Shown: in pieces, positions 7,320-46,862 of the stretch
How the letters are laid out: the number at the start of each line of letters is the position of its first letter
Numbering within the stretch: position 1 is the first letter of the stretch
Assembly (NCBI RefSeq): GCF_009696315.1
Contig: NZ_VUMG01000001.1
Coordinates: 372,001 to 436,000, forward strand
From: Cutibacterium porci
GTDB taxonomy: Bacteria > Actinomycetota > Actinomycetes > Propionibacteriales > Propionibacteriaceae
DNA length: 64,000 nucleotides
Reading direction: 5' to 3'
The notes under the pieces: generated by a model
Told to the model about the DNA's origin: nothing
The model's database searches: none
What the model saw: only the letters and a program-made list of their open reading frames with translations
Made by a program: the position numbers and the translations under genes

Positions 7320-7396
7320 TGTGGTAAACGTGCTAGAAACGGGGTTCGATGCCAGCAGGGGTGGTAACTCCCCCCTCTCCCAACCCGATTTCCACA
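7320..7396. repeat. 77-bp palindromic intergenic element, copy 1
   Basis: The outer arms are TGTGGTAAACGTGC on the left and TGTGGAAATCGGGTTGG (reverse complement) on the right. The central pair is TGCCA at element positions 31-35 and GTGG at 42-45. It has exactly the length of six other copies in the window. It fills much of the 214-bp gap between the sortase and DUF5318 genes. Confidence 0.75.
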
Positions 7397-7482
7397 CGGA
7401 CTCGAAGCAGCCGCGGCGGAGGTTTCGGCCGTCGAACACGTGTCCTGGGGACGCGTCACAAGCACGCCGTACTCTAGAAGGT

Positions 7483-7902
7483 ATGCAGACGCAGCGAAAC
7501 GTGGTTTCCCACGCCCTGCAACGTCGTCACACTCTGGAGGCGTTGCGCAGCCCCCGGGTCGACCTCAACGCCCCGACGGCGTGTGACGCCGACCCTATGT
7601 TGGTGCGCGCCGCCATGCACCACGGCGAGCCTCTCGACCACGACTGCCCGGTCTGCGAGTCCCCTCGCCTCGTCCTGCTTCGGCACGCTTTTGGCCATCA
7701 GCTGGGCCAGTACTCGGGGCGCATCCACACCCTCGACGAATTGGAGGAGATGGAGCACCAGTTCGGTGAGTTCCACGTGTACGAGGTTGAGGTTTGCCCT
7801 GACTGTCTGTGGAACCACATCCTCGTCGACTATGTCCTAGGCGACGGTCGACGCCGTCGCCCACCTCGCCATCAGCCAACTGTGGAGGACATCTATGGCT
7901 GA
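7483..7902 (+). CDS. DUF5318 family zinc-ribbon-like protein
   Basis: A 139-aa protein with two Cys pairs (CPVC near residue 53 and CPDC near residue 104) that could bind one zinc ion. The reading frame extends upstream to 7300, but the ATG at 7483, with an SD-like GAAGG a few bases before it, gives the length usual for the family, and the upstream extension runs through the palindromic element. Its function is unknown. In mycobacteria the homologous gene (Rv0049) sits directly before ponA1 and a GT87-like membrane protein gene; the same order is seen here, which suggests a role linked to cell-wall synthesis. Its end overlaps the next gene by 8 bp. Confidence 0.8.
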   Translation: MQTQRNVVSHALQRRHTLEALRSPRVDLNAPTACDADPMLVRAAMHHGEPLDHDCPVCESPRLVLLRHAFGHQLGQYSGRIHTLDELEEMEHQFGEFHVYEVEVCPDCLWNHILVDYVLGDGRRRRPPRHQPTVEDIYG

Positions 7903-10240
7903 CCGCAAACCCGCTAGAAGATCGCTGAGGCGTCATGCGCCCGCGGCCAGTGCAAGAAGGACCCGCCGCGCTGCCACGTCGGAGCGCAGCCGGCACCCCA
8001 GGCTCAAGAAACTTCTCTTGAGCCTGCTCATTGCTATCCTGTCCTTGGCGATTATTGCCGTGATCGGGGTTTTTGTTGCCTATGAGCGCACCGAGCTCCC
8101 TGACCCCAACCGCGACTTCCAGACGAACACCTCGTTCATCTACTACCGTGACGGAACTCGCCTCGGATCTTTCTCGGTGCAGAACCGTCAGTCGATCCCC
8201 TACAAGTCGATGCCGAAGACGCTGCGTGACGCCGTTGTCTCGGCGGAGAATCGCACGTTTTGGTCCGATCCGGGTATTTCAGTGAAGGGCATGACGCGCG
8301 CCGCCTGGGCGATCGCGCGTGGCGGTGAAATGCAGGGTGGTTCGACAATCACCCAGCAGTACATCAAAGTGTTGTACCTGTCCCAGGAACGCACAATGAG
8401 CCGCAAGTTCAAAGAGCTTCTGCTGGCCATAAAAATGGGTAAGGAAGTCTCGAAGGAGGACATCCTCGCCGGGTACCTCAACACCATCTACTTTGGCCGG
8501 GGAGCATACGGCGCTCAGGCTGCCGCGAAGGCGTTCTTCTACACCGACGCATCGAAGCTCACCTTGTCTCAGTCGGCGGTGTTGGCCGCAGTACTCAACA
8601 GCCCGTCTAACTTGGATCCCAATGGTGATGTAGCCGCCCGTGAGAGGTTGCTGCAGCGGTACCGCTACGTCCTCGACGGCATGCGGGAGGCCGGCAATAT
8701 CACCCAGGCTCAGCATGATGAGGCGTACCGGCAGTTGCCGGAATTCCCTAAGATCCCTGACTACAACCGATGGGCGGGAACCGACGGGTACCTCATGAAG
8801 ATGGTTTACGACGAACTCATCGCCAAGGGGTTCTCAGACCAGCAGGTCAAGGGTGGTGGCCTCAAAGTCACGACCACGCTTGACCTTAAGGACCAGAAGG
8901 CCGCTGTGGCTGCGGGTCAGAAATACAAGAGGCTTGCGGGCCGTAACGCTGGTTCTCAGGCAGCCAAGAATCTGCATCCTGCGCTCGCCTCAGTAGACGT
9001 CAGTTCTGGTGGTGTCGTCGCTCTTTATGGAGGTGATGACTATCTCTCCAACACTCGAAATTGGGCGCGTACTGCGCGTCCGTCAGCGTCCACCTTCAAA
9101 ACTTACGCGGTGGTTGCCGGGATGCGTCACGGATTTAGCTTGCGCTCTCAGCTAGAGGGAAACGCTTTCACCCCGGACGGTGACAGCACCGAGGTTCATA
9201 ACGACAGCGACGCCAACTACGGCACCGTCAGCTTGCGTCAGGCCATTTCGAAGTCGATCAACACCGCTTTTGTTGACATGGTGTCGCGGACGAAAAATGG
9301 CCCGAAGGCTGTTGTGCAGGCTGCGACTGACGCTGGCTTGCCTCGAGGAACTGGGTGGGATTTGAACAACCGCATCGCCTTGGGGACTGCCGAGGTGAGT
9401 CCCCTCGCCCAGGCAGGCGGTTACGCGACGATTGCTCATGACGGCAAGCAGGTGATCCCCCACATTGTGGACAAGGTTGTCGATCAGTCAGGCAAAGTCG
9501 TCTACCGCGCTCCTCGACCGTCAAAGCAGGCTATCCAGGCCGATATCAGCCATGACGTCAGTTACGCTCTGCAGTCAGTGGTTGAGGAAGGTACAGGACG
9601 GATCGTCTCCGACTTCGACCATCATGTGGCGGGAAAGACGGGTACCTCGGGAGTCGGTGGGGAGGTGACAGCAGCATGGTTCGTTGCCTACACCAAGCAG
9701 ATTTCGACGGCTGTCATGTTCGTGGCCGGGGACTCCGGCAATGACGACCTCGACCCCTACGCTCGTGAAGGAACGACCGGGTTCCATGGCGGTGATTATC
9801 CCGCTCGCACCTGGCTTGACTACATGCAGACGGCGATGGATGGCATGCCCGACAAGCCCTTTGCCGAGCCAGACTGGGTGAACCTCTCGGGCAAGCATTA
9901 TGGCTCCACGCGCCGTCCGCAGGTGCCGGTCGCAGACGATTCCGGTGACGGCTCAGACCAGTCATCAAGCCAGGACGATCCACAGTCGCAGGATCAGCCG
10001 ACGTCGACTCCGACTCGTACTTCTAGTTCGCGGCCGTCGTCGAAGCCTACGTCTGAGCCTTCCTCGACCAGACAGGCGCCAACGCCTACACAGGTGAGGC
10101 CCACGCACACGTCCAAGCCGACGCACACCTCGGTCCCGACGCAGACATCAAAGCCGATCCACAGCTCCACGTCTGGTCCGACGTCGGCAGAGACGACGCG
10201 CGGTGGGAGCCAACCGACTAGTCGGGCACACAATGGGTAG
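7895..10240 (+). CDS. ponA: Bifunctional class A penicillin-binding protein (transglycosylase/transpeptidase)
   Basis: A 781-aa protein: Arg-rich cytoplasmic N-terminus, one TM helix (about residues 45-70), a GT51 glycosyltransferase domain and a penicillin-binding transpeptidase domain. Glu118 in SAENRTFW is the predicted glycosyltransferase base; GGSTITQQ and the RKFKE region are typical of GT51. The transpeptidase motifs are STFK (399-402), SIN (454-456) and KTG (581-583). It polymerises lipid II and crosslinks stem peptides outside the membrane. After about residue 685 comes a Ser/Thr/Pro-rich tail ending at residue 781, like the tail of mycobacterial PonA1. It starts at 7895 behind a strong GGAGGA sequence and is probably translationally coupled to the DUF5318 gene. 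Confidence 0.95.
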   Translation: MADRKPARRSLRRHAPAASARRTRRAATSERSRHPRLKKLLLSLLIAILSLAIIAVIGVFVAYERTELPDPNRDFQTNTSFIYYRDGTRLGSFSVQNRQSIPYKSMPKTLRDAVVSAENRTFWSDPGISVKGMTRAAWAIARGGEMQGGSTITQQYIKVLYLSQERTMSRKFKELLLAIKMGKEVSKEDILAGYLNTIYFGRGAYGAQAAAKAFFYTDASKLTLSQSAVLAAVLNSPSNLDPNGDVAARERLLQRYRYVLDGMREAGNITQAQHDEAYRQLPEFPKIPDYNRWAGTDGYLMKMVYDELIAKGFSDQQVKGGGLKVTTTLDLKDQKAAVAAGQKYKRLAGRNAGSQAAKNLHPALASVDVSSGGVVALYGGDDYLSNTRNWARTARPSASTFKTYAVVAGMRHGFSLRSQLEGNAFTPDGDSTEVHNDSDANYGTVSLRQAISKSINTAFVDMVSRTKNGPKAVVQAATDAGLPRGTGWDLNNRIALGTAEVSPLAQAGGYATIAHDGKQVIPHIVDKVVDQSGKVVYRAPRPSKQAIQADISHDVSYALQSVVEEGTGRIVSDFDHHVAGKTGTSGVGGEVTAAWFVAYTKQISTAVMFVAGDSGNDDLDPYAREGTTGFHGGDYPARTWLDYMQTAMDGMPDKPFAEPDWVNLSGKHYGSTRRPQVPVADDSGDGSDQSSSQDDPQSQDQPTSTPTRTSSSRPSSKPTSEPSSTRQAPTPTQVRPTHTSKPTHTSVPTQTSKPIHSSTSGPTSAETTRGGSQPTSRAHNG

Positions 10241-10249
10241 CCTGACGAC

Positions 10250-11794
10250 GTGACCATCCCTGATCCGAAAGACGACGCCCTCGATGGCAGGCGCGGCGGC
10301 GCATACTTCAACGACGGATCCACGGGTTACGTGGCCCGCCGAGCCCTCGATGCTCCGCGACGATCCCGCGTGTCTCGGCTAGGACTGGACCGTCGTATTG
10401 GTGGACGCATGGGCCGTTATGCGTGGCCGCGTGGCATGTTCTTTGATCCTGGCCCCTGGGCCATCTTGAGCGCTATCGTCGTCTGGCTACTCACTATTTA
10501 CCGTGTCACTCCGTGTGTACAGCACGATGCAGCGAAGGCCGTCGATTTCTATCAGCGGCAGTGCTATTCGGACATTCCGACGATATATCGGGTGTCAGGG
10601 ATGGGTCATGGCGGGTCGCTGTTCGCGAACCCGGGTATTGCCCAAACCCCCCTCGTCACTGTTCTTATGGCATTTTGTCGCCGAGTGGTGTGGGCTTTCG
10701 GGGCAGAGGTTTCGCCGACGGCCACGGATCAGCAGGTTTTGGACGCCGCTAATGCTTACTGGGGAGTAGCTCAGATTGTGCTCTTCGTGGCGTTCCTAGC
10801 CGTCGCGATCTCCGTTATGTTGCTGGGGCGCGAATCAGACACGAACCTTCCGGTCGACGATATGGGCCGACCGACCCAGGCGCGACGCCGATCGTGGGAC
10901 GTCTTCTGGGTGGTGTTGTGCCCGGCGGTGTATCTTGCTGGCCTCATCGACTTCTCCATGGTTCCTGTTGCCCTAGCGACGACGTCTATGCTCGCCTGGG
11001 CTCGTCGTCGCCCGTGGTTAGCCGGAGTCTTGATGGGGTTAGCGTGCGCAGGAAGCCTCCAAGCGGCCGTGGTCGCTTTCGCCGTCATGGTGTGCTGCTT
11101 GCGTGCCACACGGTTACCGGAACTGGGCCGGTATCTTTTGTCGGGATTCGTTGTGCTGGCGGTCTGCCACGTCATTGCGGCCCGTTTGAGCTTGACTACC
11201 TGGTGGGCCTACCTGCGCTCAACGTTTTGGTCGGGGACCGGTTTGGGGACGATCTGGTACGTCATCCAGGATTCTTCCGGCGCCACGATTCCTGGGATTG
11301 GCTGGATTACCGGCACCTTGACGGTCGGTGGTCTGCTCGGACTGGCATGGTTGTCGATGACGGTGCCGAGGCGCCCGCGCATCGCCCAAGTCGCGTGCCT
11401 GGCCCTGCTGATCCTATTCATCACCAATAAGGTGTATTCGCCGCAGTGGGTGCTCCTCCTTGTCCCGCTTGCAGCCCTAGCTCGCCCGGATCTGCGGGAT
11501 TGGGGTGTGCTCATGGTGGGGGAGTGTTTTTACTCCTTGGCTGTGTGGGCCCATTTGGGTGGGCTTTCGCTGCCTGGCGGTTCTGACGCTGACATCGTCT
11601 ATTGGGCGTCAATTGTGCTGCGCCTGGCCTGCGAAATGTGGTTCGCCTGGGGGGCTTTGGACGACATCCGACGCCCGTGGAATGACGTCGTCAGGGTGGG
11701 GTATGCCGACGACCCGACCGGTGGCATCCTTGATCACGCCCCGGATCCAACACCTGAGCCTGCCCAGGAGCCCAGCGCGGAGGCTGCTCAATGA
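10250..11794 (+). CDS. GT87-like polytopic membrane glycosyltransferase
   Basis: A 514-aa protein with a soluble N-terminus of about 60 residues and roughly ten hydrophobic segments. It resembles the actinobacterial alpha-(1,2)-mannosyltransferase-like GT87/DUF2029 family, which uses polyprenyl-phosphate sugars on the outer face of the membrane. The position just after a class A PBP matches mycobacterial Rv0051. The start is a GTG 9 bp after the PBP stop. The next gene overlaps by 4 bp (ATGA). Donor and acceptor are unknown. Confidence 0.7.
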   Translation: MTIPDPKDDALDGRRGGAYFNDGSTGYVARRALDAPRRSRVSRLGLDRRIGGRMGRYAWPRGMFFDPGPWAILSAIVVWLLTIYRVTPCVQHDAAKAVDFYQRQCYSDIPTIYRVSGMGHGGSLFANPGIAQTPLVTVLMAFCRRVVWAFGAEVSPTATDQQVLDAANAYWGVAQIVLFVAFLAVAISVMLLGRESDTNLPVDDMGRPTQARRRSWDVFWVVLCPAVYLAGLIDFSMVPVALATTSMLAWARRRPWLAGVLMGLACAGSLQAAVVAFAVMVCCLRATRLPELGRYLLSGFVVLAVCHVIAARLSLTTWWAYLRSTFWSGTGLGTIWYVIQDSSGATIPGIGWITGTLTVGGLLGLAWLSMTVPRRPRIAQVACLALLILFITNKVYSPQWVLLLVPLAALARPDLRDWGVLMVGECFYSLAVWAHLGGLSLPGGSDADIVYWASIVLRLACEMWFAWGALDDIRRPWNDVVRVGYADDPTGGILDHAPDPTPEPAQEPSAEAAQ

Positions 11795-14283: not shown

Positions 14284-14290
14284 GCGTGCG

Positions 14291-24579: not shown

Positions 24580-24656
24580 TGTGGTAATCGGGTTAGTGGC
24601 GGTGGTTGCTGCCATTCGGCGTGGCACGGCGGGCCGTTTCGCGCCGATATGCCACA
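24580..24656. repeat. 77-bp palindromic intergenic element, copy 2
   Basis: Left arm TGTGGTAATCGGGTTA; right arm (reverse complement) TGTGGCATATCGGCGCG. The central inverted repeat TGCCA (31-35) / TGGCA (43-47) is perfectly symmetric about the middle base. It lies between convergent genes (POT transporter and ptsH), 27 bp after a separate terminator hairpin. Confidence 0.8.
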
Positions 24657-28220: not shown

Positions 28221-28297
28221 TGTGGTAATCGGGGTTAAAACGGCGGTCACTGCCACGAGCGGTGGTTACTGACACGGTTGTCGCCCGAATTTCCACA
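28221..28297. repeat. 77-bp palindromic intergenic element, copy 3
   Basis: Left arm TGTGGTAATCGGGGTTA; right arm (reverse complement) TGTGGAAATTCGGGCG. Centre TGCCA (31-35) and GTGG (42-45). Located inside the fru operon, between the end of fruR and the candidate fruK operator. Confidence 0.8.
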
Positions 28298-30607: not shown

Positions 30608-31744
30608 ATGTCCCTTGCACGCGTCTGTCACGTCTCTACTGTTCATAACCCGCGGGATGGTCGCATCTTCCGAAAGGAGTGCGCCAGCCTTGCCAGGCGC
30701 GGCGCCGATGTGTGGTTCATTGGCGCGCAAGATGGCGACGAGACCGTCGACGGCGTACACGTCGTAGGGATCGGCAGAGCTACCAACCGCATCGACCGCT
30801 TGACCCATCGCCAGGCGAAGGTGTGGAAGGCTCTTGATCGGGTTAATCCTGACCTCGTCCACGTTCACGATCCAGAGCTGATACCGCTGGTATTGGCGTG
30901 GAAGAAGCTGCGTGGCCGGGCTGCCGTTTTCGATGCCCACGAGGACCTCGTCGGTCAGATCGACGGTAAGGAATACTTGTCGCCACGGGTTAAGCCGGTG
31001 GCACGTGCAGTTGCCAAGGCCCTCGTGACCGCGGCTGATAAGGGGTTTGATGGCATCGTCACAGTAACTGACGGTGTCGCCGAGGATTTCAAGAATCGCA
31101 ACCAGGAGCTGGTCCACAACTACCCGCTGTTATCGAGTTTTGAGACAACGGTGGAGGGGGAGAAGGTTCCAGGTCAGATCGTCTACGTCGGAATGCTGTC
31201 TAAGGGGCGTCAGACCGACAAGATGTTCGACATGATGGATCTGCTCGACGGCGACGCACGCCTCGTCATCGCCGGTAAGCAGGACCCTGAGGTCGGTTAC
31301 CTGTTCAATGAGCTCGACAAGCACCCGCGTGTCGATTATCGGGGGTCGATCTCAGTCGATGAGGTTCCCGGTCTGCTCGGATCCTCGGTTGTCGGACTGG
31401 TCTTCTTGGAGCCGCTGCCGAATTACGTCAATTCGCTTCCTACCAAGCTCTTTGAGTACATGGCGGCCGGTATCCCATTCATCTCGACTGACTTGCCGTT
31501 CCTGGTGAACATGCTTGACAAGTGGGACTGCGGTGTCTTCGTCGACACATCGACGGACGCGACGGCTGCGGCTGATGCGGCTAGGCAGTTGTTGGCTGAT
31601 GCCGACCGTTGCAAACGGCTTGGTGAGAACGGTCGACGAGCTATCGCAGAGGAGTTCAACTTCGAGGCCGACGTTGACGCCCTCATCTCGGTTGAGGAGC
31701 GCGCCCTTAAACGTCAGGACTCCCAGATCGTCGAGGCATGCTGA
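30608..31744 (+). CDS. GT4-family glycosyltransferase (paralogue A)
   Basis: A 378-aa GT-B enzyme. Motifs: HVHDPELIPLVLAWKKLRG, FDAHEDLVGQ, LVIAGKQDPE and LPNYVNSLPTKLFEYMAAG. ATG at 30608 has GGGGAGG 7 bp upstream; the in-frame start at 30560 overlaps wbpA. It is strikingly similar to the protein at 34112, including the HDPELIP and LPTKLFEYMA blocks, so the two arose by duplication. It probably adds a residue to the same repeat unit that contains the Wbp sugar. Confidence 0.87.
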   Translation: MSLARVCHVSTVHNPRDGRIFRKECASLARRGADVWFIGAQDGDETVDGVHVVGIGRATNRIDRLTHRQAKVWKALDRVNPDLVHVHDPELIPLVLAWKKLRGRAAVFDAHEDLVGQIDGKEYLSPRVKPVARAVAKALVTAADKGFDGIVTVTDGVAEDFKNRNQELVHNYPLLSSFETTVEGEKVPGQIVYVGMLSKGRQTDKMFDMMDLLDGDARLVIAGKQDPEVGYLFNELDKHPRVDYRGSISVDEVPGLLGSSVVGLVFLEPLPNYVNSLPTKLFEYMAAGIPFISTDLPFLVNMLDKWDCGVFVDTSTDATAAADAARQLLADADRCKRLGENGRRAIAEEFNFEADVDALISVEERALKRQDSQIVEAC

Positions 31745-34112: not shown

Positions 34113-35233
34113 TGGTGAGTTCTTCCCGTCGGGGCAGAGTCGTCTCCCTCTCGACAGTGCATCACGGCCACGACAACAGGGTTTTCAACAAGGAAGCCAA
34201 GGCGCTTGTCGCGGCGGGTTACGATTACCACCTTGTCATTTCGGCCGACCGTGATGGGGTCGACCAGGGGGTTCCCGTCGTCGCACTGCACCGCGAGGAG
34301 AGTCGGATTCGCCGACTCGTCGTCAGTCAGCGGGAGGCGTGGCACCAGCTGCGCGTCCTTGAACCGGACGTGTTGCATATCCATGATCCTGAGCTGATTC
34401 CACTGGCACTAGCGTGGCGCCAACGGCATCGCTGCAAGGTGATCTACGATGCGCACGAAGACCTCATCGGCCAAGTTGACACGAAACCGTACCTGGGGGC
34501 GGTAACGAGACCACTGGCCAGAATGGCCGCTCGTGGGCTTGTAGGGTTGGCCGGCCGCAGCGCCGACGCCGTCGTTGCGGCCACGCCGACTGTGGGGGAG
34601 AGGTTTCACCACGCCCCGGTCACGGTAGTGCGCAATTACCCGTGGCTAAGCAACTACACCACGACACCAAATCCAGTGCCCGGGCGGCTGGCATACGTTG
34701 GCGACCTGTCTGAGGAGCGCAAGCTTTCCTTCATGATCGAGGTGACGCGAAAGGTTCGTCAGCGAGTGTCGGGAACACATTTAGTACTCGCCGGGCGGGT
34801 GTTGCCGCGCTGCCAAGAGACGGTAGAGCAGGCTGTGGCGGAGGGGTTTGTGGAGCATCTCGGGTTGGTGGCTCCTACCGAGGTGCCGCAGGTACTGGCT
34901 AGCGCACAGGTCGGTTTGGTCTTCCTTAAGCCGTTGCCGAACTATGTTGCGTCGCTGCCGACGAAGCTGTTTGAGTACATGGCTTCCCAGGTGCCTTTTG
35001 CTGCCTCGGACTTCCAGGCTTGGCGCGAGATGTTCGATGGTTTTGGGGCTGGGGTCTTTGTTGATACTGAAGATGTCACTGCTACGGCGAATGCCCTTAG
35101 CGAGTTGTTGGCTGATCCACAGCGGTGCCGGAAGATGGGGTATGCCGGGCGTCGAGCGGTTGAGTTGGGGCTCAACTTCGAGTCTCAGGCGGAGGCTCTG
35201 ACTGATCTGGTCGCCGGTTTACTCGAGGGCTGA
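34112..35233 (+). CDS. GT4-family glycosyltransferase (paralogue B)
   Basis: A 373-aa GT-B enzyme paralogous to the one at 30608: HIHDPELIPLALAW, YDAHEDLIGQVDTK, LVLAGRVLP and LPNYVASLPTKLFEYMA line up at the same spacing. It probably adds a different residue of the same glycan. It is the last gene of the wbpA block; 118 bp separate it from a palindromic element. Confidence 0.87.
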   Translation: MVSSSRRGRVVSLSTVHHGHDNRVFNKEAKALVAAGYDYHLVISADRDGVDQGVPVVALHREESRIRRLVVSQREAWHQLRVLEPDVLHIHDPELIPLALAWRQRHRCKVIYDAHEDLIGQVDTKPYLGAVTRPLARMAARGLVGLAGRSADAVVAATPTVGERFHHAPVTVVRNYPWLSNYTTTPNPVPGRLAYVGDLSEERKLSFMIEVTRKVRQRVSGTHLVLAGRVLPRCQETVEQAVAEGFVEHLGLVAPTEVPQVLASAQVGLVFLKPLPNYVASLPTKLFEYMASQVPFAASDFQAWREMFDGFGAGVFVDTEDVTATANALSELLADPQRCRKMGYAGRRAVELGLNFESQAEALTDLVAGLLEG

Positions 35234-35351: not shown

Positions 35352-35428
35352 TGTGGTGATCCGGGTCGGGATGGGCCTCGGTGTCATTCCTGCCAGCAGA
35401 CGCCAGAGTCACGAACCGACTTTCCACA
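35352..35428. repeat. 77-bp palindromic intergenic element, copy 4
   Basis: Left arm TGTGGTGATCCGGGTC; right arm (reverse complement) TGTGGAAAGTCGGTTCG. The centre is less conserved (TGTCA at 31-35). It spans the in-frame ATG at 35381 of the next reading frame, which argues that the real start of that gene is further downstream. A perfect Streptomyces-type DnaA box (TTGTCCACA, 35454-35462) follows 25 bp later. Confidence 0.65.
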
Positions 35429-35512
35429 GGCTGGTTGCGTAACCGGACCGAAGTTGTCCACAGGTCTGAAATTGCGTGGCGGAAATCAACTCTTCCGACG
35501 ACAACTTTTTAC

Positions 35513-36460
35513 GTGAGGAATCTTGGAGAACAACTCGACCGGCGGGGTGTGGCCCGCATCCATCGGCACAGCTATGTCCGGGGCCAGGCCGACCGGGCGG
35601 TAGCCCGCGGGGACGCCGTACGCATCTTGCCGGGAGTGGTCGCTGTGACTGCCCTAGCCCGGGACCCGAGGGTCATTATCCGGGCGTTACTGCTGTGGCA
35701 CCGCGACATTGTGCTGGTCGGCAAAGCGGGCCTCGTCATGCTCGGGATGACGGCTCCAGGCACAAACCGGCGCATGGACTTTCATCGCGTTAACGAGGTG
35801 GAGGCGTTCTCTACAACTCGGCGCGTCAGCCGGCCGGGAATTCGGGTGCGTCGGTGGCATGTGCCACGCAGGTTTATTACTGAGCGGGAGCACGTTCGTG
35901 TTGCCGCCGCCGAAGTGTCGGTGCTCATACTGGCTATACAGGGCGAGTGGGAATGGGTATGTGAGGCGCTGCGACAACGAGTCGTGACGCCCGAATCGTG
36001 TCGACGAGCGCGTAACAGTCTGAGGGGTCGATATCCCAAGATCATGATTGATGCGGCACTGGCTGACATCTGCCTTGCCGCATGGTCAATTCCAGAACTG
36101 GAGATGGGAAGGGTGCTCCGTGCGACAGGGATCACGGGGCATAAACCGAATCATAGAATTCGCGTGGGTGATCGGTATTACTACCTTGACCAGGCCTTTG
36201 AGGCTGAGAAGGTGGCTTTGGAGGTCGATGGTCGGTCAGTTCATGGAACTATCGATGGGTTTGAGGCGACCATGATGCGTACAGCGCAATTGGATCGTCA
36301 CGGCTGGAAGGTGCTTCACGTCACCCCAACCATGTTCCGTGAAAACCCCAGGTTTGTCCTAGACTGGCTCGCCTCCCACCTCCACCGACGCCATCGACCC
36401 AAAACGATGTTCACTGAGCCAACCTTGCGGCGGATTATGAACGGTGCTGCTCCCGCTTGA
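35513..36460 (+). CDS. DUF559/Vsr-like endonuclease-fold protein with winged-helix-like N-terminus
   Basis: About 315 aa. The N-terminal part (ARIHRHSYVRG ... VRILPGVVAV) resembles the AbiEi-like domain common in actinobacterial proteins of this type. The C-terminus has a PD-(D/E)XK-like core: YYYLDQAFEAEKVALEVDG, then RSVHG, and QLDRHGWKVLHVTP, as in DUF559 proteins. The in-frame ATG at 35381 lies inside the 77-bp element and the stretch up to about 35510 does not look coding, so GTG at 35513 (or GTG 35549) is preferred; no good SD supports any of them. DNA cleavage has not been shown for most such proteins. Confidence 0.6.
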   Translation: MRNLGEQLDRRGVARIHRHSYVRGQADRAVARGDAVRILPGVVAVTALARDPRVIIRALLLWHRDIVLVGKAGLVMLGMTAPGTNRRMDFHRVNEVEAFSTTRRVSRPGIRVRRWHVPRRFITEREHVRVAAAEVSVLILAIQGEWEWVCEALRQRVVTPESCRRARNSLRGRYPKIMIDAALADICLAAWSIPELEMGRVLRATGITGHKPNHRIRVGDRYYYLDQAFEAEKVALEVDGRSVHGTIDGFEATMMRTAQLDRHGWKVLHVTPTMFRENPRFVLDWLASHLHRRHRPKTMFTEPTLRRIMNGAAPA

Positions 36461-36534
36461 AACCGCGGCGCGGTCTAAGAGCGAGGCACTGGAGTCTTGC
36501 CCTGCCCCTCACATTCACTTCTTTCTAACCCCGT

Positions 36535-36611
36535 TGTGGAAATCGGGGTGATGCCCAACTCATCTGCAACCTCACGGAGCATGGTGGACTGTCAGGTACC
36601 TGATTACCACA
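36535..36611. repeat. 77-bp palindromic intergenic element, copy 5
   Basis: Left arm TGTGGAAATCGGGGTGA; right arm (reverse complement) TGTGGTAATCAGGTACC. The T-type arm is on the right, so this copy is inverted relative to copies 1-4. It lies between convergent genes (36460 + and 36740 -). The rest of this 279-bp gap shows no other clear feature. Confidence 0.75.
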
Positions 36612-38535: not shown

Positions 38536-39183
38536 ATGCCACATCTCCATACCCAGCCGCACGGACATGACGTGACGATCAGCGCGTGGATCCTTAGACA
38601 GTTTCCGTCTGACGGCCCCCGTCGTCGCCAGTGGAAAGCACTAGTCCACAAGCACCGCAAGATGAATCTGTGGATCCAACCTGGGGGACACGTCGAGCAT
38701 ACTGAGAATCCCTGGCAGGCGTTGGCCCACGAGCTTCACGAGGAGACCGGCTATCGCATCAACCAGCTGAGCGTTCTGCAGCCCTGGGAGCGGTTGCCCG
38801 ACGGTGTGCATGATCTCATGCACCCCACTCCGGTGCTCCTCAACACCCACAGCCCGTACCCGAGCCACTTCCACTCCGACATTGTCATGGCGATGGTCGC
38901 CCATGGCGATCCGGTGGAGAAACCGCGTCCGGGGGAGTCTCAGGAGCTGCGATGGGTCAGTCCTGACGAATTTGCCATGCTGCCGGGGGCTGAGCCTGAC
39001 GCCGTCATGATCATGACGATGATCGTTGAAAGGGTCGCGGACTCCTGGTTGCCTATCCCCGCGTCGCGGTGGTCGCTGGCTGATGCCCCCGTCGAGGCGA
39101 TGACTGATCGTTCCGTCGCTGAGGCCACCGCTCCGGATCCTCTCGATGACCGAGAAACATCGGAGTGGGAGACAACTAAGTGA
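38536..39183 (+). CDS. Nudix hydrolase with His in place of the Nudix-box Arg
   Basis: A 215-aa protein whose Nudix box runs from Gly51 to Tyr73. It fits GX5EX7REUXEEXGU except that the Arg is His65 (HELHEETGY). The metal-binding Glu residues (66, 69, 70) are kept. The N-terminal HxH-rich start and the long C-terminal tail after about residue 170 are not part of the core domain. The substrate is unknown. The stop overlaps the hrpB start, so the two are probably cotranscribed. Confidence 0.85.
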   Translation: MPHLHTQPHGHDVTISAWILRQFPSDGPRRRQWKALVHKHRKMNLWIQPGGHVEHTENPWQALAHELHEETGYRINQLSVLQPWERLPDGVHDLMHPTPVLLNTHSPYPSHFHSDIVMAMVAHGDPVEKPRPGESQELRWVSPDEFAMLPGAEPDAVMIMTMIVERVADSWLPIPASRWSLADAPVEAMTDRSVAEATAPDPLDDRETSEWETTK

Positions 39184-41678
39184 TGAAGAAATGGGGCCCA
39201 GACCTTGCGAGGGTGGGGGCTGGGCTACCGGTTGCCGCATACCGTGACGAGATCACCACGGCATTACAGGGTGGTCGAGCCGTCATCGTCGCTCCGCCGG
39301 GTACCGGCAAGACGACATTCGTTCCGCCCCTGGTGGCTTCGAGGTGCTCTGGTCGGGTCATTGTTACCCAGCCACGGCGGGTGGCAGCGAGGGCCGCTGC
39401 TCGCCGACTTGCCACACTAACCCTGACCCGCCCCGGACAATTTGCCTCGCACACCGTGCGCGGGGAGTCAACGACGACCCGTGACACCAAAGTTGAGTTC
39501 GTTACTACCGGAGTTCTGCTGCGTCGCCTACTCAACGATCCCGATCTGACTGGGGTGGATGCCGTCATCCTCGACGAGGTGCACGAGCGTCACATCGACG
39601 CTGATCTCGTCGTGGCAATGGTGTGCGAAGTCGCCCAGTTGCGCTCCGACCTGACCATCGTCGCGATGTCGGCGACTGTTGACAGCTCGGGCTGGGCGAC
39701 TCTTCTCGGCGACGCTGAGCCGGCCCCGGTCATCGAGGTTGCTTCCGCTATGCACGAGCTCGAAGTGGAGTGGGCCCCGGTGCCTGGTGCTGCCGTGGAA
39801 TTTCGGGGCGTAAGCCGGGAATTTCTCAGTCATCTTGGCAGCGTGACTGTCGACGCGCTCAAACGCCACACGGAAGGGTCGGTACTCGTCTTCGTTCCGG
39901 GTACCCGCGAGGTCGATCATGTTGTCGCGGATCTGCGCTCCCGACTCACCGGGATCGAGGTGGTTGGGCTGTCCGGGTCGATGTCAGCGCGAGAGCAGGA
40001 TCATGCCTTGTCAGATCCAGGGAACGGGCGTCGCGTCATTGTCTCGACCTCTGTCGCAGAGTCTTCCCTGACGGTGCCTGGGGTGAGGCTTGTTGTCGAC
40101 TCCGGGCTAGCTCGCGAACCGAGGCTCGACCGTGGCCGAGGCATGACAGGCCTAGTGACAGTCCGGGAATCTCGCGCCTCAGCCGTACAACGGGCAGGGC
40201 GTGCTGCTCGTCTGGGCGCGGGGGTGGCAGTGCGATGCCTGCGCGCCGAGGACTGGGCGGGTATGGACGCCGCCCCTGCCCCCGAGATCGATCACGCAGA
40301 TCTTGTGGCACCTTTGTTGTCCTTGGCCATGTGGGGATCTCCTCGTGGCGAAGGGATGGCACTTCCGACACCATTGCCACAGGATCGGGTGGCGGCGGCC
40401 GAGGAAGAACTGCGGGATCTGGGAGCCGTCGATGCACAGGGCCGGATAACGGCGAGAGGCCGTCAACTTGCCACGCTTCCACTGGATCCGCGTCTGGCAA
40501 GGGCATTGACTGACGGCGCCGCCATAGTAGGGTCGCGACGCTGCGCGGAGATCGCCGCCATGCTTGGTTTGGATGACGGCCAAGTCGACCTAGTTGGGCA
40601 GTGGCGTCAGTTGCGGTCTGGGCGACACCCCGAGTCCACAGTGTGGCGTCGTGAAGCTGATCGACTCGCCCGGCTCATTGACGACGTTCCCTCGACTGGC
40701 GTCACTGATGATGACGCCGTCGCCGTTGTTGTGTCCCTTGCGCGTCCGGGATGGATCGCGCGCAGCCGAGGGGAGGGGTCTACGTCGTATTTGCTGGCTT
40801 GTGGCACGGGAGTCGACCTGCCTCGCAATTGTCCGCCAAGGCTGCTCGGACAGCGGTGGCTTGCAGTGGCACGCACGTCCCGCGTTACGAGCGGCGCCAT
40901 GATCCGGGCGGCTGTACCGTTGTCGGAATCGGCTGCTCTAGACGCGGGCGCATCGATGCTGGCAAGCGACACGTCGGTGACGTGGGACGGAGGGAAGGTA
41001 CGAGGCAGGCGGGTGTCTCGACTCGGCGCGATCGAGCTGTCATCGACTCCGCTCCGACCGGATCCAGTGCAAGCTCGCCGTGCGGTTTTGGAAGGAGTGA
41101 GGTCCGAGGGGCTTGTGGTGGTCTTGACGAAGAGCGGTGAGGCCTTGCGACGGCGGCTCGCTCTTGCCCATCGAGTGCTCGGTGATCCGTGGCCTGAGGT
41201 TAGTGATGAGGCCCTTCTAGACCGTGCCGAGGAATGGCTCGACCTCGATGCGCTTGCAGCAGGACGGCGGAGTGACGCGACCTCGGGGTTGCGGGGATTA
41301 CTGGGTTGGCAGGAATCTGCCCGTCTCGACGAGGTCGTCCCGGAAACCATTACCGTCCCTAGTGGATCGCGGGTTCGGGTTGACTACCCCGGCCATGACA
41401 GTGACGCTTCCCCGATTCTTGCGGTCAAACTCCAGGAGTGTTTTGGCTGGACTGACGGTCCTGCGATTTGTGATGGCAAGGTACGGGTGGTTCTTCATCT
41501 GCTGTCACCGGCCCGACGTCCACTGGCCATCACCGACGATCTGGCAAGTTTTTGGGCCAATGTGTATCCCGCGGTGAGGGCCGAGAATCGCGGACGCTAT
41601 TCCAAACACCCCTGGCCGGAAGACCCTATGACTGCACTCCCGACCAAATACACCAACCGTTCTCTGAGGTTGGACTGA
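39183..41678 (+). CDS. hrpB: ATP-dependent helicase HrpB (DEAH/RHA family)
   Basis: An 831-aa superfamily 2 helicase. Motif I is PPGTGKTT (38-45), motif II is DEVH (131-134), motif III is SATV, and motif VI is VQRAGRAARLG near residue 335. An HA2-like domain and the C-terminal HrpB domain follow, and the length is normal for HrpB. Its role in most bacteria is unclear. GTG at 39180 is also possible; ATG at 39183 overlaps the previous stop. Confidence 0.92.
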   Translation: MKKWGPDLARVGAGLPVAAYRDEITTALQGGRAVIVAPPGTGKTTFVPPLVASRCSGRVIVTQPRRVAARAAARRLATLTLTRPGQFASHTVRGESTTTRDTKVEFVTTGVLLRRLLNDPDLTGVDAVILDEVHERHIDADLVVAMVCEVAQLRSDLTIVAMSATVDSSGWATLLGDAEPAPVIEVASAMHELEVEWAPVPGAAVEFRGVSREFLSHLGSVTVDALKRHTEGSVLVFVPGTREVDHVVADLRSRLTGIEVVGLSGSMSAREQDHALSDPGNGRRVIVSTSVAESSLTVPGVRLVVDSGLAREPRLDRGRGMTGLVTVRESRASAVQRAGRAARLGAGVAVRCLRAEDWAGMDAAPAPEIDHADLVAPLLSLAMWGSPRGEGMALPTPLPQDRVAAAEEELRDLGAVDAQGRITARGRQLATLPLDPRLARALTDGAAIVGSRRCAEIAAMLGLDDGQVDLVGQWRQLRSGRHPESTVWRREADRLARLIDDVPSTGVTDDDAVAVVVSLARPGWIARSRGEGSTSYLLACGTGVDLPRNCPPRLLGQRWLAVARTSRVTSGAMIRAAVPLSESAALDAGASMLASDTSVTWDGGKVRGRRVSRLGAIELSSTPLRPDPVQARRAVLEGVRSEGLVVVLTKSGEALRRRLALAHRVLGDPWPEVSDEALLDRAEEWLDLDALAAGRRSDATSGLRGLLGWQESARLDEVVPETITVPSGSRVRVDYPGHDSDASPILAVKLQECFGWTDGPAICDGKVRVVLHLLSPARRPLAITDDLASFWANVYPAVRAENRGRYSKHPWPEDPMTALPTKYTNRSLRLD

Positions 41679-41704: not shown

Positions 41705-41781
41705 TGTGGTGAATTGGTTTTCGACGCCGTGAGCAGCCACCTGGAGTGGCTCCCCGAGGGTCATTAACCACGATTGCCACA
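41705..41781. repeat. 77-bp palindromic intergenic element, copy 6
   Basis: Left arm TGTGGTGAATTGGTTTTC; right arm (reverse complement) TGTGGCAATCGTGGTTAA. Central hairpin AGCCACctggaGTGGCT is strong. It starts 26 bp after the hrpB stop and could also act as its terminator. Confidence 0.75.
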
Positions 41782-41863: not shown

Positions 41864-41948
41864 CGGCGGCCACATTCGTAGGCGTTGGCTCGGCATCGTG
41901 TCGCTGGGTCTCCCAATCGACCCGACGGCCACATATCGTGGGCGCTGG
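41864..41948. repeat. Imperfect 25-bp direct repeat upstream of the TPP riboswitch
   Basis: CGGCGGCCACATTCGTAGGC (from 41864) and CGACGGCCACATATCGTGGG (from 41923) are similar copies about 59 bp apart, both continuing into GCG(T/C)TGG. No gene is seen between hrpB and the riboswitch (41679-41983) apart from this repeat and the palindromic element. Confidence 0.4.
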
Positions 41949-41983
41949 TGGTCTGCCAGCTGCGTGGCTATGATCAGTGGCAA

Positions 41984-42068
41984 CGACAGGGGAGCATCAT
42001 CGGATGCTGAGAGTGGGCACTACCCAGACCCTCGAACCTGAACCGGTTAGAACCGGCGTAGGGAGTCG
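41984..42068 (+). promoter_or_regulatory. TPP (THI-box) riboswitch
   Basis: The conserved THI-element parts occur in order: CAGGGGAGC, TGCTGAGAGTGGG, GACCCTCGAACCTGAACCGG, TTAG, and CGTAGGGAGTC. Together they form the thiamine diphosphate aptamer. The ykoE gene starts 49 bp downstream, with a SD-masking hairpin between, so thiamine diphosphate should switch off the transporter. Confidence 0.95.
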
Positions 42069-42090
42069 GGCTCTTCGCGCTTTTCGCGCC

Positions 42091-42110
42091 CCTTCCGAAT
42101 GAGCGGAAGG
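42091..42110 (+). promoter_or_regulatory. SD-sequestering hairpin of the TPP riboswitch
   Basis: CCTTCCG (42091-42097) pairs perfectly with CGGAAGG (42104-42110), which is the SD of ykoE 7 bp before its ATG at 42117. This is the expected translational off-switch of the riboswitch. Confidence 0.7.
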
Positions 42111-42116
42111 ACTTCC

Positions 42117-42746: not shown

Positions 42747-44839
42747 CTGACGTCATGGCCCTTAGCCAGGCTGACGAGGTCTCCGATCGCCAGGCGGTAC
42801 CGGTAGATGTGGAGGGGCTGACGGTCAGGGTTCCCGATCGTGACGAGCCCATCCTTGGTCCGATCGACCTTCATGTGGCGGCGGGCGCCCGAGTGCTTGT
42901 CGCCGGGCCGTCAGGGGCAGGCAAGACCACGCTGCTGCACGCCATTGGTGGTTTGCTGGAGGAGGAAAGCCACGACTTGTCCGGGCGGGTGGATACCTGG
43001 TCTGGTGGAGTGAACGTCGGTTTGTTGCAGCAGGAACCGGTCCACTCTGTCGTTGCTGCCACGTGCGGGCGAGACATTGCCTTTGGTCCGGAAAACCATC
43101 GTGTCCCACGCGAGGACATCTGGTCGATTGTCGAGGACTCTCAACGACGCGCCCGGTTCACTATGTCCACCAACCATTCGACGACGAAGATGTCCGGCGG
43201 CCAGATGCAGCGTCTGGCCATTGCGGGAATCCTCGCTACTAACCCCGGCCTGGTGCTGCTCGACGAGCCCATCTCCATGCTGGACGAGGAGTCAGCTACA
43301 GCAATCCGTGACGAGATTGCGAGGATGGCCCACGACCGGACAGTTTTTGTCGTCGATCACCATCCCGACCAGTGGCGTGGCATCCTCGACCAGGTCGTCG
43401 AGTTGACCGATCACGGCACCCTCAGCAAAATCTGGGATTTTGAGGATTTCCTGGACTCTCGCGAGGCAACGCCGATACCGCTCCCCGCTGCCAGCGCCGG
43501 CGAGACAGTCGCCCGCGCCAACGCCCTCGACGTTCACCGCCCTCAGTCTGACGATGTGCTGCTGCGCGGCGTCACCATGTCTGCTCGACGCGGCCACATC
43601 ACGGTCCTGTCGGGCCCGAGCGGGATCGGTAAGTCGACCCTGCTGAGGCTGCTCGCCGGCCTTGACGCTCCCGTCTCCGGTGAGCTGACGTTGCCGGACC
43701 AGGTTGCCTGGGTTCCGCAGAACCCAGAGAACTACCTTGTGGCCCAGACGGTTGCCGACGAGTTATCTGCCTCACCGCTGGTCCCTGACGACGCTGATTT
43801 GAAAGGCCTGGTGAGGACTTTTGGGCTCGCGCCGATTCTAGACTCGCACCCCATGACCTGCTCCGGGGGCGAGAAGCGACGACTCGCGATCGCGGCGGCC
43901 CTCGCTCAGCGTCCCGACCTTCTGCTGCTCGATGAGCCGACTGTCGGTCTCGACGATGACCGTGGCGCGAGCGTGCTGTCAGCGATTCGTGCCGCGGCCG
44001 ATTCGGGTGTGGCCATCGTTGCTTCCTCGCATGATCGGCAGGTCGTCGACATGGCTGATGAGGTCGTCGACGTCGCTTCTTACCGAGTGCCGGACCCCAC
44101 CCCTGACGAGCATCCGGAGGACAAGCCAGCTTTCCTGACGACGATCAATCCGCTCGTCGTCCTCGTCATTGCCGTCGCTGGCATCCTCGGATCCCTTTTT
44201 GTGCGTTCCCCGCTCGTCGGGGCAATTGGGCTGATCCCTGTCGTCGTGATGGCTCCATTGTGTTCGCATCATGTCAAACCCCTGGTGGCACGGACGGTGC
44301 CGGTTCTCATCGCCGCGGTGATGCTGGTATGGACGACCCTGCTCCTGCACAGCGGCTTTACTGATTCAGCAACGTGGCGTGAAGGGATTCGTCAGGGGTT
44401 AAGGATCCTCGTCTTTGTGCTGCCGGGCGCGCTGGCCACGGCGGCCGTCGACCCCACTCGGTTGGGTGACGCCTTGGCCCAGCAGACCCACCTGCCGCAG
44501 CGCCCAGTCGTAGCGTCGGTGGCTGGTGTGGTACGGATGGGACATCTCGGTGACCAGTGGCGCATCCAGTCCGATGTGCGCAAGCTGCGCGGGTTGGGGC
44601 CGAAACGCTCCCTGCCTTCGTGGATCAGGTATCTGTCGTCGATGACTTTCGCGATGGTGTTGTATGCGATGAGGTCTTCGGAAGTCCTGAGCCGGGCGAT
44701 GGATTCTCGCGGCTTCGCAACCGCAACCCGCCGAACCTACGCGGTGGAGTCGCGCCTGCGTGCTCGTGACCTGTGGGGAGTGGTGCTTGCAGTGTTCGTC
44801 GTCGCAGTTCCAGGGCTGGCGGCAGCGCTGCTCGGTTAA
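42743..44839 (+). CDS. ykoD: Fused ECF transporter: two ABC ATPase domains plus EcfT (YkoD-YkoC)
   Basis: A 698-aa protein. The first ATPase domain has Walker A GPSGAGKTT (55-63), signature MSGGQMQRLAIA and Walker B LVLLDEP; the second has GPSGIGKST (about 292), CSGGEKRRLAIA and LLLLDEP. From about residue 465 to the end lies an EcfT-like membrane domain. In Bacillus, YkoD (two ATPases) and YkoC (EcfT) are separate; here they are one chain. With YkoE it forms a full thiamine importer. Confidence 0.92.
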   Translation: MTDVMALSQADEVSDRQAVPVDVEGLTVRVPDRDEPILGPIDLHVAAGARVLVAGPSGAGKTTLLHAIGGLLEEESHDLSGRVDTWSGGVNVGLLQQEPVHSVVAATCGRDIAFGPENHRVPREDIWSIVEDSQRRARFTMSTNHSTTKMSGGQMQRLAIAGILATNPGLVLLDEPISMLDEESATAIRDEIARMAHDRTVFVVDHHPDQWRGILDQVVELTDHGTLSKIWDFEDFLDSREATPIPLPAASAGETVARANALDVHRPQSDDVLLRGVTMSARRGHITVLSGPSGIGKSTLLRLLAGLDAPVSGELTLPDQVAWVPQNPENYLVAQTVADELSASPLVPDDADLKGLVRTFGLAPILDSHPMTCSGGEKRRLAIAAALAQRPDLLLLDEPTVGLDDDRGASVLSAIRAAADSGVAIVASSHDRQVVDMADEVVDVASYRVPDPTPDEHPEDKPAFLTTINPLVVLVIAVAGILGSLFVRSPLVGAIGLIPVVVMAPLCSHHVKPLVARTVPVLIAAVMLVWTTLLLHSGFTDSATWREGIRQGLRILVFVLPGALATAAVDPTRLGDALAQQTHLPQRPVVASVAGVVRMGHLGDQWRIQSDVRKLRGLGPKRSLPSWIRYLSSMTFAMVLYAMRSSEVLSRAMDSRGFATATRRTYAVESRLRARDLWGVVLAVFVVAVPGLAAALLG

Positions 44840-44843
44840 ACCA

Positions 44844-44859
44844 GCTGAGCTGGCTCAGC
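44844..44859. terminator. Short hairpin between convergent genes
   Basis: GCTGAG and CTCAGC with a 4-nt loop lie between the ykoD stop and the stop of the opposing glycosyltransferase gene. The stem is short and has no U-tract, so terminator function is uncertain. Confidence 0.3.
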
Positions 44860-46030
44860 GATACAGCGCTTTCTCCAACACGGTCGCCAGCTTGTCGACG
44901 GATGCCTGCAACGAGTACTTGTTAGCCATGAGTTCGCGGGCTCGCTTGTGCCAGCGCGTCATGGTGGCCTCGTCGGCGTCACGCACCCGCTCGATGCCGG
45001 CAACTAGATCGGTCGGATCGACACAGGCGCCCACCTCGTCGTCGCTGATGACGTCACGGATCGGCACTTTGGCGTTGGAGACGACGGCCAGGCCAGCAGC
45101 CATGTAGTCGTAGAGCTTGTTGGGGCTCATGCCTTTGTCAAAGACCGATTGCGGGGACACCGTATGTAGGCCGACGTCGCATGCTGACAGGATGCGCACT
45201 AATTCTGATTTCGGCACTTGGTCGTGGAAGGTGACGTTAGTCAGGCCGAGCTTGGCGACTTCGTCTATAGCCCACTGTTTGCGCGCCCCGGCACCCACAA
45301 GTAGAAAATTGACGTCTGGCAAGCGACGGGCGGCGTCAATGATGAGGTCTAATCCGACGTAGTTCGCGTGGGTTCCTGAGAACACCGCGGTGAATCCGGA
45401 GATGCCGTACCGTTTGCGCAGCTCCTCACGGGACTCTGTGACCTCGTATTCGGCCAGGTCGGCGCCGTTGGGGACAACGGTGACCTTATCGACGTTGATG
45501 CCGAGTTCGCGAAAGTGGTCCTCCCAGCCCTTCGTCACGACAACGATCTGACGCGCGTGGGCGTAGATAGTTTTCTCTAACCCTTGCAGCACTTTATGCA
45601 GGGTTGACCCTTCTTTGAGAGCACCGCCCGATACCAAGGATTCGGGCCACAGGTCGCGGACTTCAACGACGAATGGCTTGTGGCGAAGTGCGGCAACAAC
45701 CATGGCGGCTGCGGGGGCCAAGATCTGTGGTGAGGAAGCGAAAATGACGTCTGCCGGGCGGATAAGGGCACGCGCGCCGGCACCGGCGGCGAAGGCTATC
45801 CAGCCGAGGACCCGTTTCACACCGTTACCCTTGTACTCCGGGATCGGGACGAGTGTGTAACGAGGGTCGTCGACCGTCATGTGCTCGCCGGAGGTGTGGT
45901 TGATGTTGGCGGCGTAAAAATGAGGCTGCCAGCCGCGTAGCCGGGAGAACATATCAAAGTTGCGGGTGATGCCACCCGACCCCGGCGGAAAGGCGTAGTG
46001 GTTGATCACGCTGACCTTGCGTTGCGGCAT
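44855..46030 (-). CDS. WbuB-like GT4 glycosyltransferase
   Basis: A 391-aa GT-B enzyme. The N-terminus NHYAFPPGSGGITRNFD, VEVRDLWPESLV, VVTKGWEDHF and VPNGADLAEYEV are typical of WbuB-type transferases; the C-terminal domain has SPNKLYDYMAAGLAVV. ATG at 46030 has AGGAGGAAAG upstream; the in-frame start at 46054 lacks it. It may add a residue to the surface glycan made by the Wbp block 10 kb away, but it is a single gene here. The last base pairs overlap a small hairpin shared with ykoD. Confidence 0.87.
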   Translation of the reverse strand: MPQRKVSVINHYAFPPGSGGITRNFDMFSRLRGWQPHFYAANINHTSGEHMTVDDPRYTLVPIPEYKGNGVKRVLGWIAFAAGAGARALIRPADVIFASSPQILAPAAAMVVAALRHKPFVVEVRDLWPESLVSGGALKEGSTLHKVLQGLEKTIYAHARQIVVVTKGWEDHFRELGINVDKVTVVPNGADLAEYEVTESREELRKRYGISGFTAVFSGTHANYVGLDLIIDAARRLPDVNFLLVGAGARKQWAIDEVAKLGLTNVTFHDQVPKSELVRILSACDVGLHTVSPQSVFDKGMSPNKLYDYMAAGLAVVSNAKVPIRDVISDDEVGACVDPTDLVAGIERVRDADEATMTRWHKRARELMANKYSLQASVDKLATVLEKALYR

Positions 46031-46109
46031 CTTTCCTCCTGAGTTGGCGCGCACACCAACCCTACCGGGTGCGGCTGTTGCCCGTGGCCACGATCAGAGT
46101 CGTAGCCGA

Positions 46110-46529
46110 TCAGTCTTCGCGGGTGCCCTCCAGAGCTAGGCCTACCAGGATTGGCTGGAAGAGCAGGCGAATCGCGCGTTTGCGGTCGTCATCAAGGCCG
46201 AATCCATCTTTGTGCTCGACAAATTGGCCAACGTTACCGGGGAAAATTGCGGCGAAGAAAGCGGCTGCGCTGCGTCCCCAGAATTTCTTGTGACGGCCTG
46301 ACAATAGACCGGTTCCCAGGATGATCTCGGCAGCGCCGGACAGCAAAACAACCGTGTCGTCGTCCATGGGCACCCAATCTGGAACTTGAGCCTGAAATTC
46401 CTCACGGACGAAGGTGAGGTGTCCAACACCCGCGTAGGCCAGCAGACCACCCACTCCAAGTCGGCTCAGGGTGCGCAACGGATGGCGCTTCGACGGTGAA
46501 GGAGCGGTGAAGTGTGATGAGTGGGACAT
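46110..46529 (-). CDS. DoxX-like small membrane protein
   Basis: A 139-aa protein with about four hydrophobic segments (GVGGLLAYAGVGHLTF, VVLLSGAAEIILGTGLL, FFAAIFPGNVGQFV and LFQPILVGLALEG), the layout of DoxX-like proteins. AGGAGGAT precedes the start. Function unknown. The 535-bp region upstream (46530-47064) holds no convincing gene but two palindromic elements and a terminator. Confidence 0.8.
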   Translation of the reverse strand: MSHSSHFTAPSPSKRHPLRTLSRLGVGGLLAYAGVGHLTFVREEFQAQVPDWVPMDDDTVVLLSGAAEIILGTGLLSGRHKKFWGRSAAAFFAAIFPGNVGQFVEHKDGFGLDDDRKRAIRLLFQPILVGLALEGTRED

Positions 46530-46579
46530 TGATCCTCCTGATGGATGTGACCGAAACCGGTACTCAACCGATGGTAGCT

Positions 46580-46657
46580 CGTGGAAATCCTGTCAGGTTT
46601 TCGCCTCAGGGGCTGGCAACAGTGGCAGGGGATTCCGCATGTAACCCATATGCCACA
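46580..46657. repeat. 78-bp palindromic intergenic element, copy 7
   Basis: Left arm CGTGGAAATCCTGTC (first base changed); right arm (reverse complement) TGTGGCATATGGGTTAC. One base longer than the others. The centre has GGCTGGCAAC and GTGGCAG one position off. It lies 51 bp upstream of the DoxX-like gene. Confidence 0.55.
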
Positions 46658-46785
46658 ACTGGTCGGTGGGCTGCTTTGGCCGGTGGGCTGCTCTGATCGT
46701 CGTTGGCTGACCGGATCCGCCAACGAGAGCCCCCTTTGTGACAGCGAGTGGCTTTGACGTGCCGCGGGTCGGATCTGGATGCTGC

Positions 46786-46862
46786 TGTGGCAATCCGGTT
46801 GGTGATCGTTGAATGAGCTACCTCAGGTGGCAGCCGACGCTATTGGTAACCCGATTACCACA
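46786..46862. repeat. 77-bp palindromic intergenic element, copy 8
   Basis: Left arm TGTGGCAATCCGGTTGG; right arm (reverse complement) TGTGGTAATCGGGTTACC. Centre AGCTA (31-35) and GTGGCAG. The T-type arm is on the right, so it is inverted relative to copies 1-4. It lies 128 bp from copy 7. Confidence 0.8.

Follow-up and report, generated by a model that had tools for sequence, protein, structure and literature searches.

Eight palindromic copies are distributed over a 64,000-nucleotide stretch of the Cutibacterium porci genome (contig NZ_VUMG01000001.1, positions 372,001 to 436,000; the window hereafter), and the question that they raise is what keeps a 77-bp element at constant length while the segments between its arms and its centre differ widely. 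A sequence-only reading of the window had described the copies and named structured RNA, a mobile element resembling repetitive extragenic palindromes (REP) and a DNA-binding or topology site as candidates; it saw the copies but missed that two of them bracket a nuclease gene. We favour, with moderate confidence, the explanation that the 77-bp palindrome is the target of this nuclease and was spread, sometimes with the nuclease gene, by homing-like repair. The analysis covered the C. porci genome itself (G000), the congeners G001 to G008, among them a Cutibacterium metagenome assembly (G003), C. avidum (G005), Cutibacterium modestum (G006) and C. namnetense (G007), and 28 other genomes of the family or order.

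A nuclease gene between two copies of the palindrome

Re-reading of the sequence returned all eight copies at their reported coordinates, and seven were exactly 77 bp long from TGTGG to CCACA. The features are listed below, the elements without strand.

7320..7396: 77-bp element, solo; pattern and model scans; orthologues in G002 and G007
24580..24656: 77-bp element, solo, in a gap of convergent genes; pattern and model scans; orthologues in G002 and G007
28221..28297: 77-bp element, solo; pattern and leave-one-out scans; orthologues in six congeners
35352..36611, plus strand: element-gene-element unit of 1.26 kb, with both bracketing elements included
35352..35428: 77-bp element that brackets the nuclease gene on its left; orthologues in G002, G003, G005, G006 and G007
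35513..36460, plus strand: nuclease gene, 315 amino acids counted from the GTG at 35513, in a frame that is open from 35381; N-terminal region and C-terminal Vsr/MTES_1575-type domain
36535..36611: 77-bp element that brackets the nuclease gene on its right; orthologues in G002, G003, G005, G006 and G007
41705..41781: 77-bp element, solo, 26 bp past a gene end; orthologues in six congeners
46580..46657: 78-bp decayed element; model-search E of 0.14; counterparts of 77 bp in three congeners
46786..46862: 77-bp element, solo, top-scoring copy; leave-one-out and model scans; orthologues in six congeners

In leave-one-out scans, the seven exact copies scored 38–65 bits, and the best non-copy in the window reached at most 26.7 bits. 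The 78-bp copy at 46580–46657 begins with CGTGG and is a decayed copy; its counterparts in G002 (190923), G006 (268984) and G007 (252523) are 77 bp long. The stretch at 63795–63871, a member of the first alignment, was rejected as a chance half-match and dropped in the replacement alignment.

A single gene family is found between elements, common to the clusters of G001 and to the region of the window. The gene between 35352 and 36535 occupies the same place in six congeners, and a paralogue (C1:363089-364009) lies between two further elements. Among the 28 homologues of at least 47% identity in G000–G007, 18 carried an element on both sides, the left copy being weak in one of these and the right copy in another, and three had a variant palindrome of 77 bp flanking one side (G004 1796789, G005 447317 and G003 C3:45982). 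Six more distant homologues (two in G008, two in G011, one each in G000 and G001) were without the Cutibacterium-type element. G008 gave no match to the element model and held homologues of only 37–38% identity. Thus, element and close homologue are present together or absent together in the nine congeners.

The bracketed protein matched MTES_1575 in Pfam with E 4e-7, scoring 30.4 bits where the cut-off is 38.2; it also matched DUF559 with E 0.0016, below the cut-off. MTES_1575 was matched by 22 of 22 homologues at E ≤ 0.01; besides MTES_1575 and DUF559, the bracketed protein and 21 homologues gave single weak matches to AbiEi_1, Vsr and RAP, and the Y1 (HUH) tyrosine transposase was not matched in this set. 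MTES_1575 is named as a Vsr restriction endonuclease domain in PMC3710099. The AlphaFold model of the protein had a mean predicted local distance difference test score of 93 and a predicted template modelling (TM) score of 0.89. In Foldseek, the best well-superposed matches were I-Bth0305I (3r3p; probability 1.00, TM 0.77 by target, 101 columns, E 0.02) and Vsr. The C-terminal domain is therefore predicted to fold like the homing endonuclease I-Bth0305I, and S192, E195, D226, E237 and H244 are invariant in the 22 homologues. A sequence search of the PDB returned nothing relevant. The N-terminal half gave no clear structural match; judged by its secondary structure and weak matches to AbiEi, which has an AbiEii partner in AbiE toxin-antitoxin systems, it is perhaps a winged helix. 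AbiEi_1 was matched by one of 22 homologues at E 0.0036; in PADLOC, AbiEi matched the paralogue at E 0.025 and did not match the window protein. The nuclease probably recognises the palindromes flanking its gene.

Anatomy of the element and constraint on its arms

In the consensus, each half of the element consists of TGTGGnAATCnGGTTnnTGA, a variable stretch and TGCCAcc. From the centre outward, the inner box (GGTGGCA) is by eye similar to the outer one (TGTGGTA), which gives, likewise by eye, four half-sites at 1, 37, 41 and 77; in the same visual reading, the element appears as two 37-bp inverted repeats with 3 bp between them. When two 20-bp arms were scored separately, 98 of the 114 arm pairs lying 40–119 bp apart spanned 77 bp, ten spanned 76 bp and three 78 bp; spans of 74, 118 and 119 occurred once each.

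The constraint on the parts was compared at nine sites with detected elements in 3–7 species (G004 excluded at two), a choice of sites that somewhat favours the arm-conservation result. Within clades, pairwise identity was highest in the arms (0.88), followed by the inner boxes (0.82), the spacers (0.65) and the flanks (0.48); the corresponding values between clades were 0.75, 0.66, 0.45 and 0.36. Elements at different sites shared 0.70 of their arms, 0.61 of their inner boxes and 0.35 of their spacers, with flanks at 0.30. Orthologous arms hold to the consensus, and the remainder drifts toward chance. The consensus itself varies by lineage, positions 12–13 being TG in G001 and GG in the avidum and acnes groups. 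The constant length and diverged spacers, which the sequence-only reading took as pointing to selection on structure, were borne out; the selection is better described as acting on two symmetric half-sites at a fixed distance.

Pairing between the halves was tested with 122 distinct copies, near-identical ones having been dropped, by dealing the arms randomly among copies in 300 shuffles. The outer arms (positions 1–15) were paired in 0.715 of cells versus 0.714 after shuffling, a value reached by 144 of the 300 shuffles, and the inner boxes in 0.733 versus 0.738. Positions 16–20 paired above all 300 shuffles (0.567 versus 0.518), while the spacers (21–30 versus 48–57) paired below all of them (0.340 versus 0.411), perhaps by hairpin avoidance or a composition effect. 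Since the outer arms do not covary, the element reads as a DNA site and not as RNA. A structured RNA or transcribed hairpin would account for the folding of single copies and for the excess pairing at positions 16–20, but we regard it as extremely improbable: neither outer arms nor inner boxes covary, the covariation term of RNAalifold is unfavourable (+0.43), no Rfam family matches the copies, and copies also lie between divergent genes. At gathering scores, Rfam recognised in the window only a thiamine pyrophosphate (TPP) riboswitch elsewhere; it lies at 41978–42081, about 200 bp past the copy at 41705–41781. Of the earlier candidates, the DNA-binding site and the REP-like way of life both gained support, and no named family was found for the element.

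Distribution in Cutibacterium and repeats around distant homologues

The element extends beyond the eight copies of the window. The fixed-length arm pattern, with three mismatches or fewer, occurred at 10 places genome-wide, all on contig C1 at 283–419 kb, versus 0 for the reversed control. A sequence-only model seeded with 10 copies in both orientations found 23 places in the own genome at E ≤ 1, of which 19 lie on C1 at 262–419 kb and two farther down the same contig, at 523 and 535 kb; C12 and C13 each hold a single one. With up to 129 candidates scored per genome, model matches at E ≤ 0.01 were confined to 8 of 37 genomes (G000–G007), none being found in G008 or the 28 other genomes of the family or order. 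An exact 20-base pattern, which misses most copies, hit five stretches of a genome collection, all titled Cutibacterium, and none in viral contigs. Relatives of the nuclease were confirmed in none of 82 pattern stretches from viral contigs, and plasmids yielded none at E ≤ 1e-5.

As had been described, the window copies lie outside coding sequence, all eight being clear of gene calls; a longer GTG reading of the bracketed gene, from 35381 on, would overlap the copy at 35352. In the 244-kb region examined, where gene calls make up 85.5%, 13 of 16 strong copies were clear of gene calls and three overlapped them, two at predicted gene starts (C1:283269 and C1:349641) and one within an open reading frame (C1:333390). 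The frame around this last, element-like copy (L007) resembles by eye an MmpL/RND transporter, and the copy sits in a linker of it that is about 80 bp shorter in G008. Within the 832-amino-acid frame at 39180–41678, two element-like 77-mers (39340–39416 and 39794–39870) score above background and have counterparts in several congeners; they are either chance matches kept by the coding sequence or elements absorbed into the gene, and as coding sequence they were left out of the parts count. Elsewhere in the window, the 74-bp stretches 31391–31464 and 34910–34983, 3.5 kb apart in two similar coding regions, are 78% identical.

Could the elements now serve the host, as sites for chromosome organisation or for self-regulation by the protein, with nuclease activity secondary or lost? 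The own copies are concentrated on C1 at 262–419 kb, to one side of dnaA (248 kb), the arms have long been kept at the same intergenic places, and the active-site-like residues are invariant, so that the protein is maintained. Against such a function, which we consider quite improbable, most G001 copies lie far from dnaA, G008 has none, copy numbers and sites vary between species, and convergent, divergent and tandem gaps in the 244-kb region all hold copies, which suits no promoter operator. An origin- or DnaA-related site, suggested by the CCACA ends of the arms and the own copies near dnaA, was rejected on the same distribution in G001 and G008, and a transcription-factor regulon was discounted for the mixed gap types. 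A second DnaA-domain protein occurs only in G001 (C1:676007) and G008 (C1:1130641) among the eight congeners searched (E about 1e-13).

Solo copies lay nearer to bracketed genes than random by median distance in G000, G002 and G004 (0.003–0.004) and not in G001 (0.08); their count within 60 kb of bracketed genes passed in G002 (0.016) and G004 (0.033) and failed in G000 (0.098) and G001 (0.10). The genomes in these statistics share ancestry.

To look beyond the genus, the left and right 400-bp flanks of each homologue were compared with each other and with 100 shuffles of its own flanks; the set excluded L126, which lies at a contig edge, L132 and L135, which are one split gene, and also L090 and L091. 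Matching left-right repeats above all shuffles were found for 2 of 2 genes in G008, for 8 of the 11 that belong to the genus of G011 and for 2 of the 8 from further genera, with L133 barely exceeding its shuffles (15.5 versus 15.0), and for 0 of 7 genes from the other two Cutibacterium subfamilies. The 70 control genes of the window region scored 14.5 or less, below every one of the repeats found at the G008 and more distant homologues. The repeats around distant homologues are of other sequence, mostly palindromes of about 60–88 bp whose arms differ from gene to gene. One palindrome from the genus of G011, where the arms are near-perfect inverted repeats, is dispersed as well: its arm matched 20 times in G011 and 25 times in G037, and the reversed control gave 1 match and 0 matches, respectively. 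Of the 13 inverted pairs lying close together in three genomes, 12 measured 78 bp and one 79 bp; one of the 13 is a gene bracket.

Movement, known systems and the favoured explanation

Traces of movement were sought between species. At one locus, the same flanks enclose a unit of about 1.4 kb in G003 and 28 bp in C. avidum; the C. avidum gap contains AATCGCCACA, which is compatible with an arm and is possibly a relic of the element. No element was found at this locus in four acnes-side genomes; G004 has the unit, with its right side rearranged. Four congeners lack the solo element of C1:349641; their interval is 67–74 bp shorter and too diverged for exact ends. A comparison of occupied and empty sites yielded two presence/absence sites between species, with poor alignment and inexact junctions. 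As had been noted, no target-site duplication was recognised around the window copies; the two sites are too diverged for exact junctions.

Elements that are the ends and miniature derivatives (miniature inverted-repeat transposable elements, MITEs) of an ordinary transposon with an acquired nuclease gene would likewise be short and gene-free with inverted-repeat ends, here beginning with TG and ending with CA, and would form units that vary between species. We hold this very unlikely: no parent transposase was seen, the bracketed gene matching no transposase family; neither the window copies nor the two poorly aligned sites showed a clear target-site duplication; and the copies combine a fixed length with diverged, unrelated interiors.

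Local events were seen in G004 and G001. In G004, the elements at C1:147779 and C1:148256 (L056), 477 bp apart, are identical at 75 of 77 positions and have similar flanks; from their sequence, this pair is a recent local duplication. In a single case, a neighbouring pair of G004 elements agrees in flank and left half and diverges exactly at the palindrome centre. Some G001 element pairs are alike at 56–64 of 77 positions, most flanks being near chance.

These G001 pairs fit a rival explanation in which the nuclease acts in trans on the extruded or single-stranded palindrome and moves the palindrome alone, the gene being stationary and vertically inherited. Such a system would be analogous to REP doublets forming hairpins (REPINs) and the REP-associated tyrosine transposases (RAYTs), in which, according to PMC3116915 and PMC3733652, the gene lies between palindromes of which further, gene-free copies are scattered through intergenic space, and enzyme and palindrome lineages go together. 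The layout is the same here (18 of 28 homologues bracketed, 23 places, eight of eight window copies intergenic), the constant place of the gene in six congeners fits, and so do the near-perfect arms in the genus of G011; the REP-like way of life named as a candidate is supported. We nevertheless consider the analogy unlikely as a mechanism, given that gene units too differ between species, that the predicted fold is of a duplex-cutting type and that Cutibacterium arms show no selection for pairing. The system was not filed under REPIN-RAYT because it departs from it in enzyme, tag and pairing constraint: the bracketed gene has matches to MTES_1575/DUF559 and not to a tyrosine transposase, the consensus TGTGGnAATCnGGTTnnTGA...TGCCAcc has by eye no GTAG or CGTC tag at the hairpin foot, and the arms are under no pairing constraint.

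The EDxHD/Vsr-type homing endonuclease I-Bth0305I shares the predicted fold of the catalytic domain (3r3p). According to the review PMC3943268, it dimerises on a target of nearly 60 bp; such a long dimeric target can be likened to the long element and suits a long symmetric site. Unlike I-Bth0305I, the Cutibacterium gene is free-standing between two full palindromes, solo sites are many per genome, the palindrome symmetry is complete, and activity is predicted. The C-terminal domain also places the protein with the MTES_1575/DUF559 Vsr-like nucleases, for which open-licence papers yielded no link to flanking palindromes.

Homing-like repair, the explanation that we favour, would proceed as follows. 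First, a protein dimer, or a pair of dimers, would bind the symmetric element. Second, the nuclease would cut or nick near the element centre. Third, the break would be repaired from another copy, so that the palindrome would spread, sometimes with the gene, in the manner of homing. A mid-element break in a solo copy, repaired from a bracketed unit, would leave the gene between two full elements; the outcome would be one gene with a palindrome on either side, together with many solo palindromes in intergenic positions. The palindromes differ between nuclease lineages, so protein and site seem to diversify together.

Several observations weigh against this explanation. Homing predicts gene-free alleles that retain an intact solo element, and none was found among the alleles compared; at the one clean-flank locus, the C. 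avidum allele has no intact solo element and at most a 10-bp relic. A recent duplication in G004, a 1306-bp tract 99.3% identical at two loci, ends inside the unit and resembles gene conversion. The elements are mostly old and in fixed places, which makes present activity doubtful. Seven of the 28 homologues (four full-length, three partial matches) are without an element; the flank test misses 3 of 11 genes in the genus of G011 and 6 of 8 in other genera, and detects only one of seven known bracketed Cutibacterium genes. The Pfam scores of the bracketed protein lie under the curated cut-offs, and Foldseek gave no PDB chain at E ≤ 0.001, its top three rows being poorly superposed mitoribosomal chains. 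Binding of the palindrome, its cleavage and homing by the nuclease are predictions.

On a broader view, which we hold with about even confidence, these genes and sites would form an undescribed class of selfish system in the Propionibacteriaceae, convergent with REPIN-RAYT: a free-standing Vsr/EDxHD-type nuclease co-evolving with a private long palindrome, the dimer cutting the centre and break repair copying palindrome and gene, with lineage-specific palindromes of near-equal length, 77 and 78 bp for the best two examples. No description tying such nucleases or Cutibacterium to such palindromes was found in the open-licence literature. If this is true, nuclease genes known only as MTES_1575/DUF559 would gain a likely substrate, and a second, unrelated enzyme class would join the one-gene systems that maintain palindrome populations in bacteria. 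The many natural protein-palindrome pairs would then allow a direct test of how recognition of very long DNA targets evolves.

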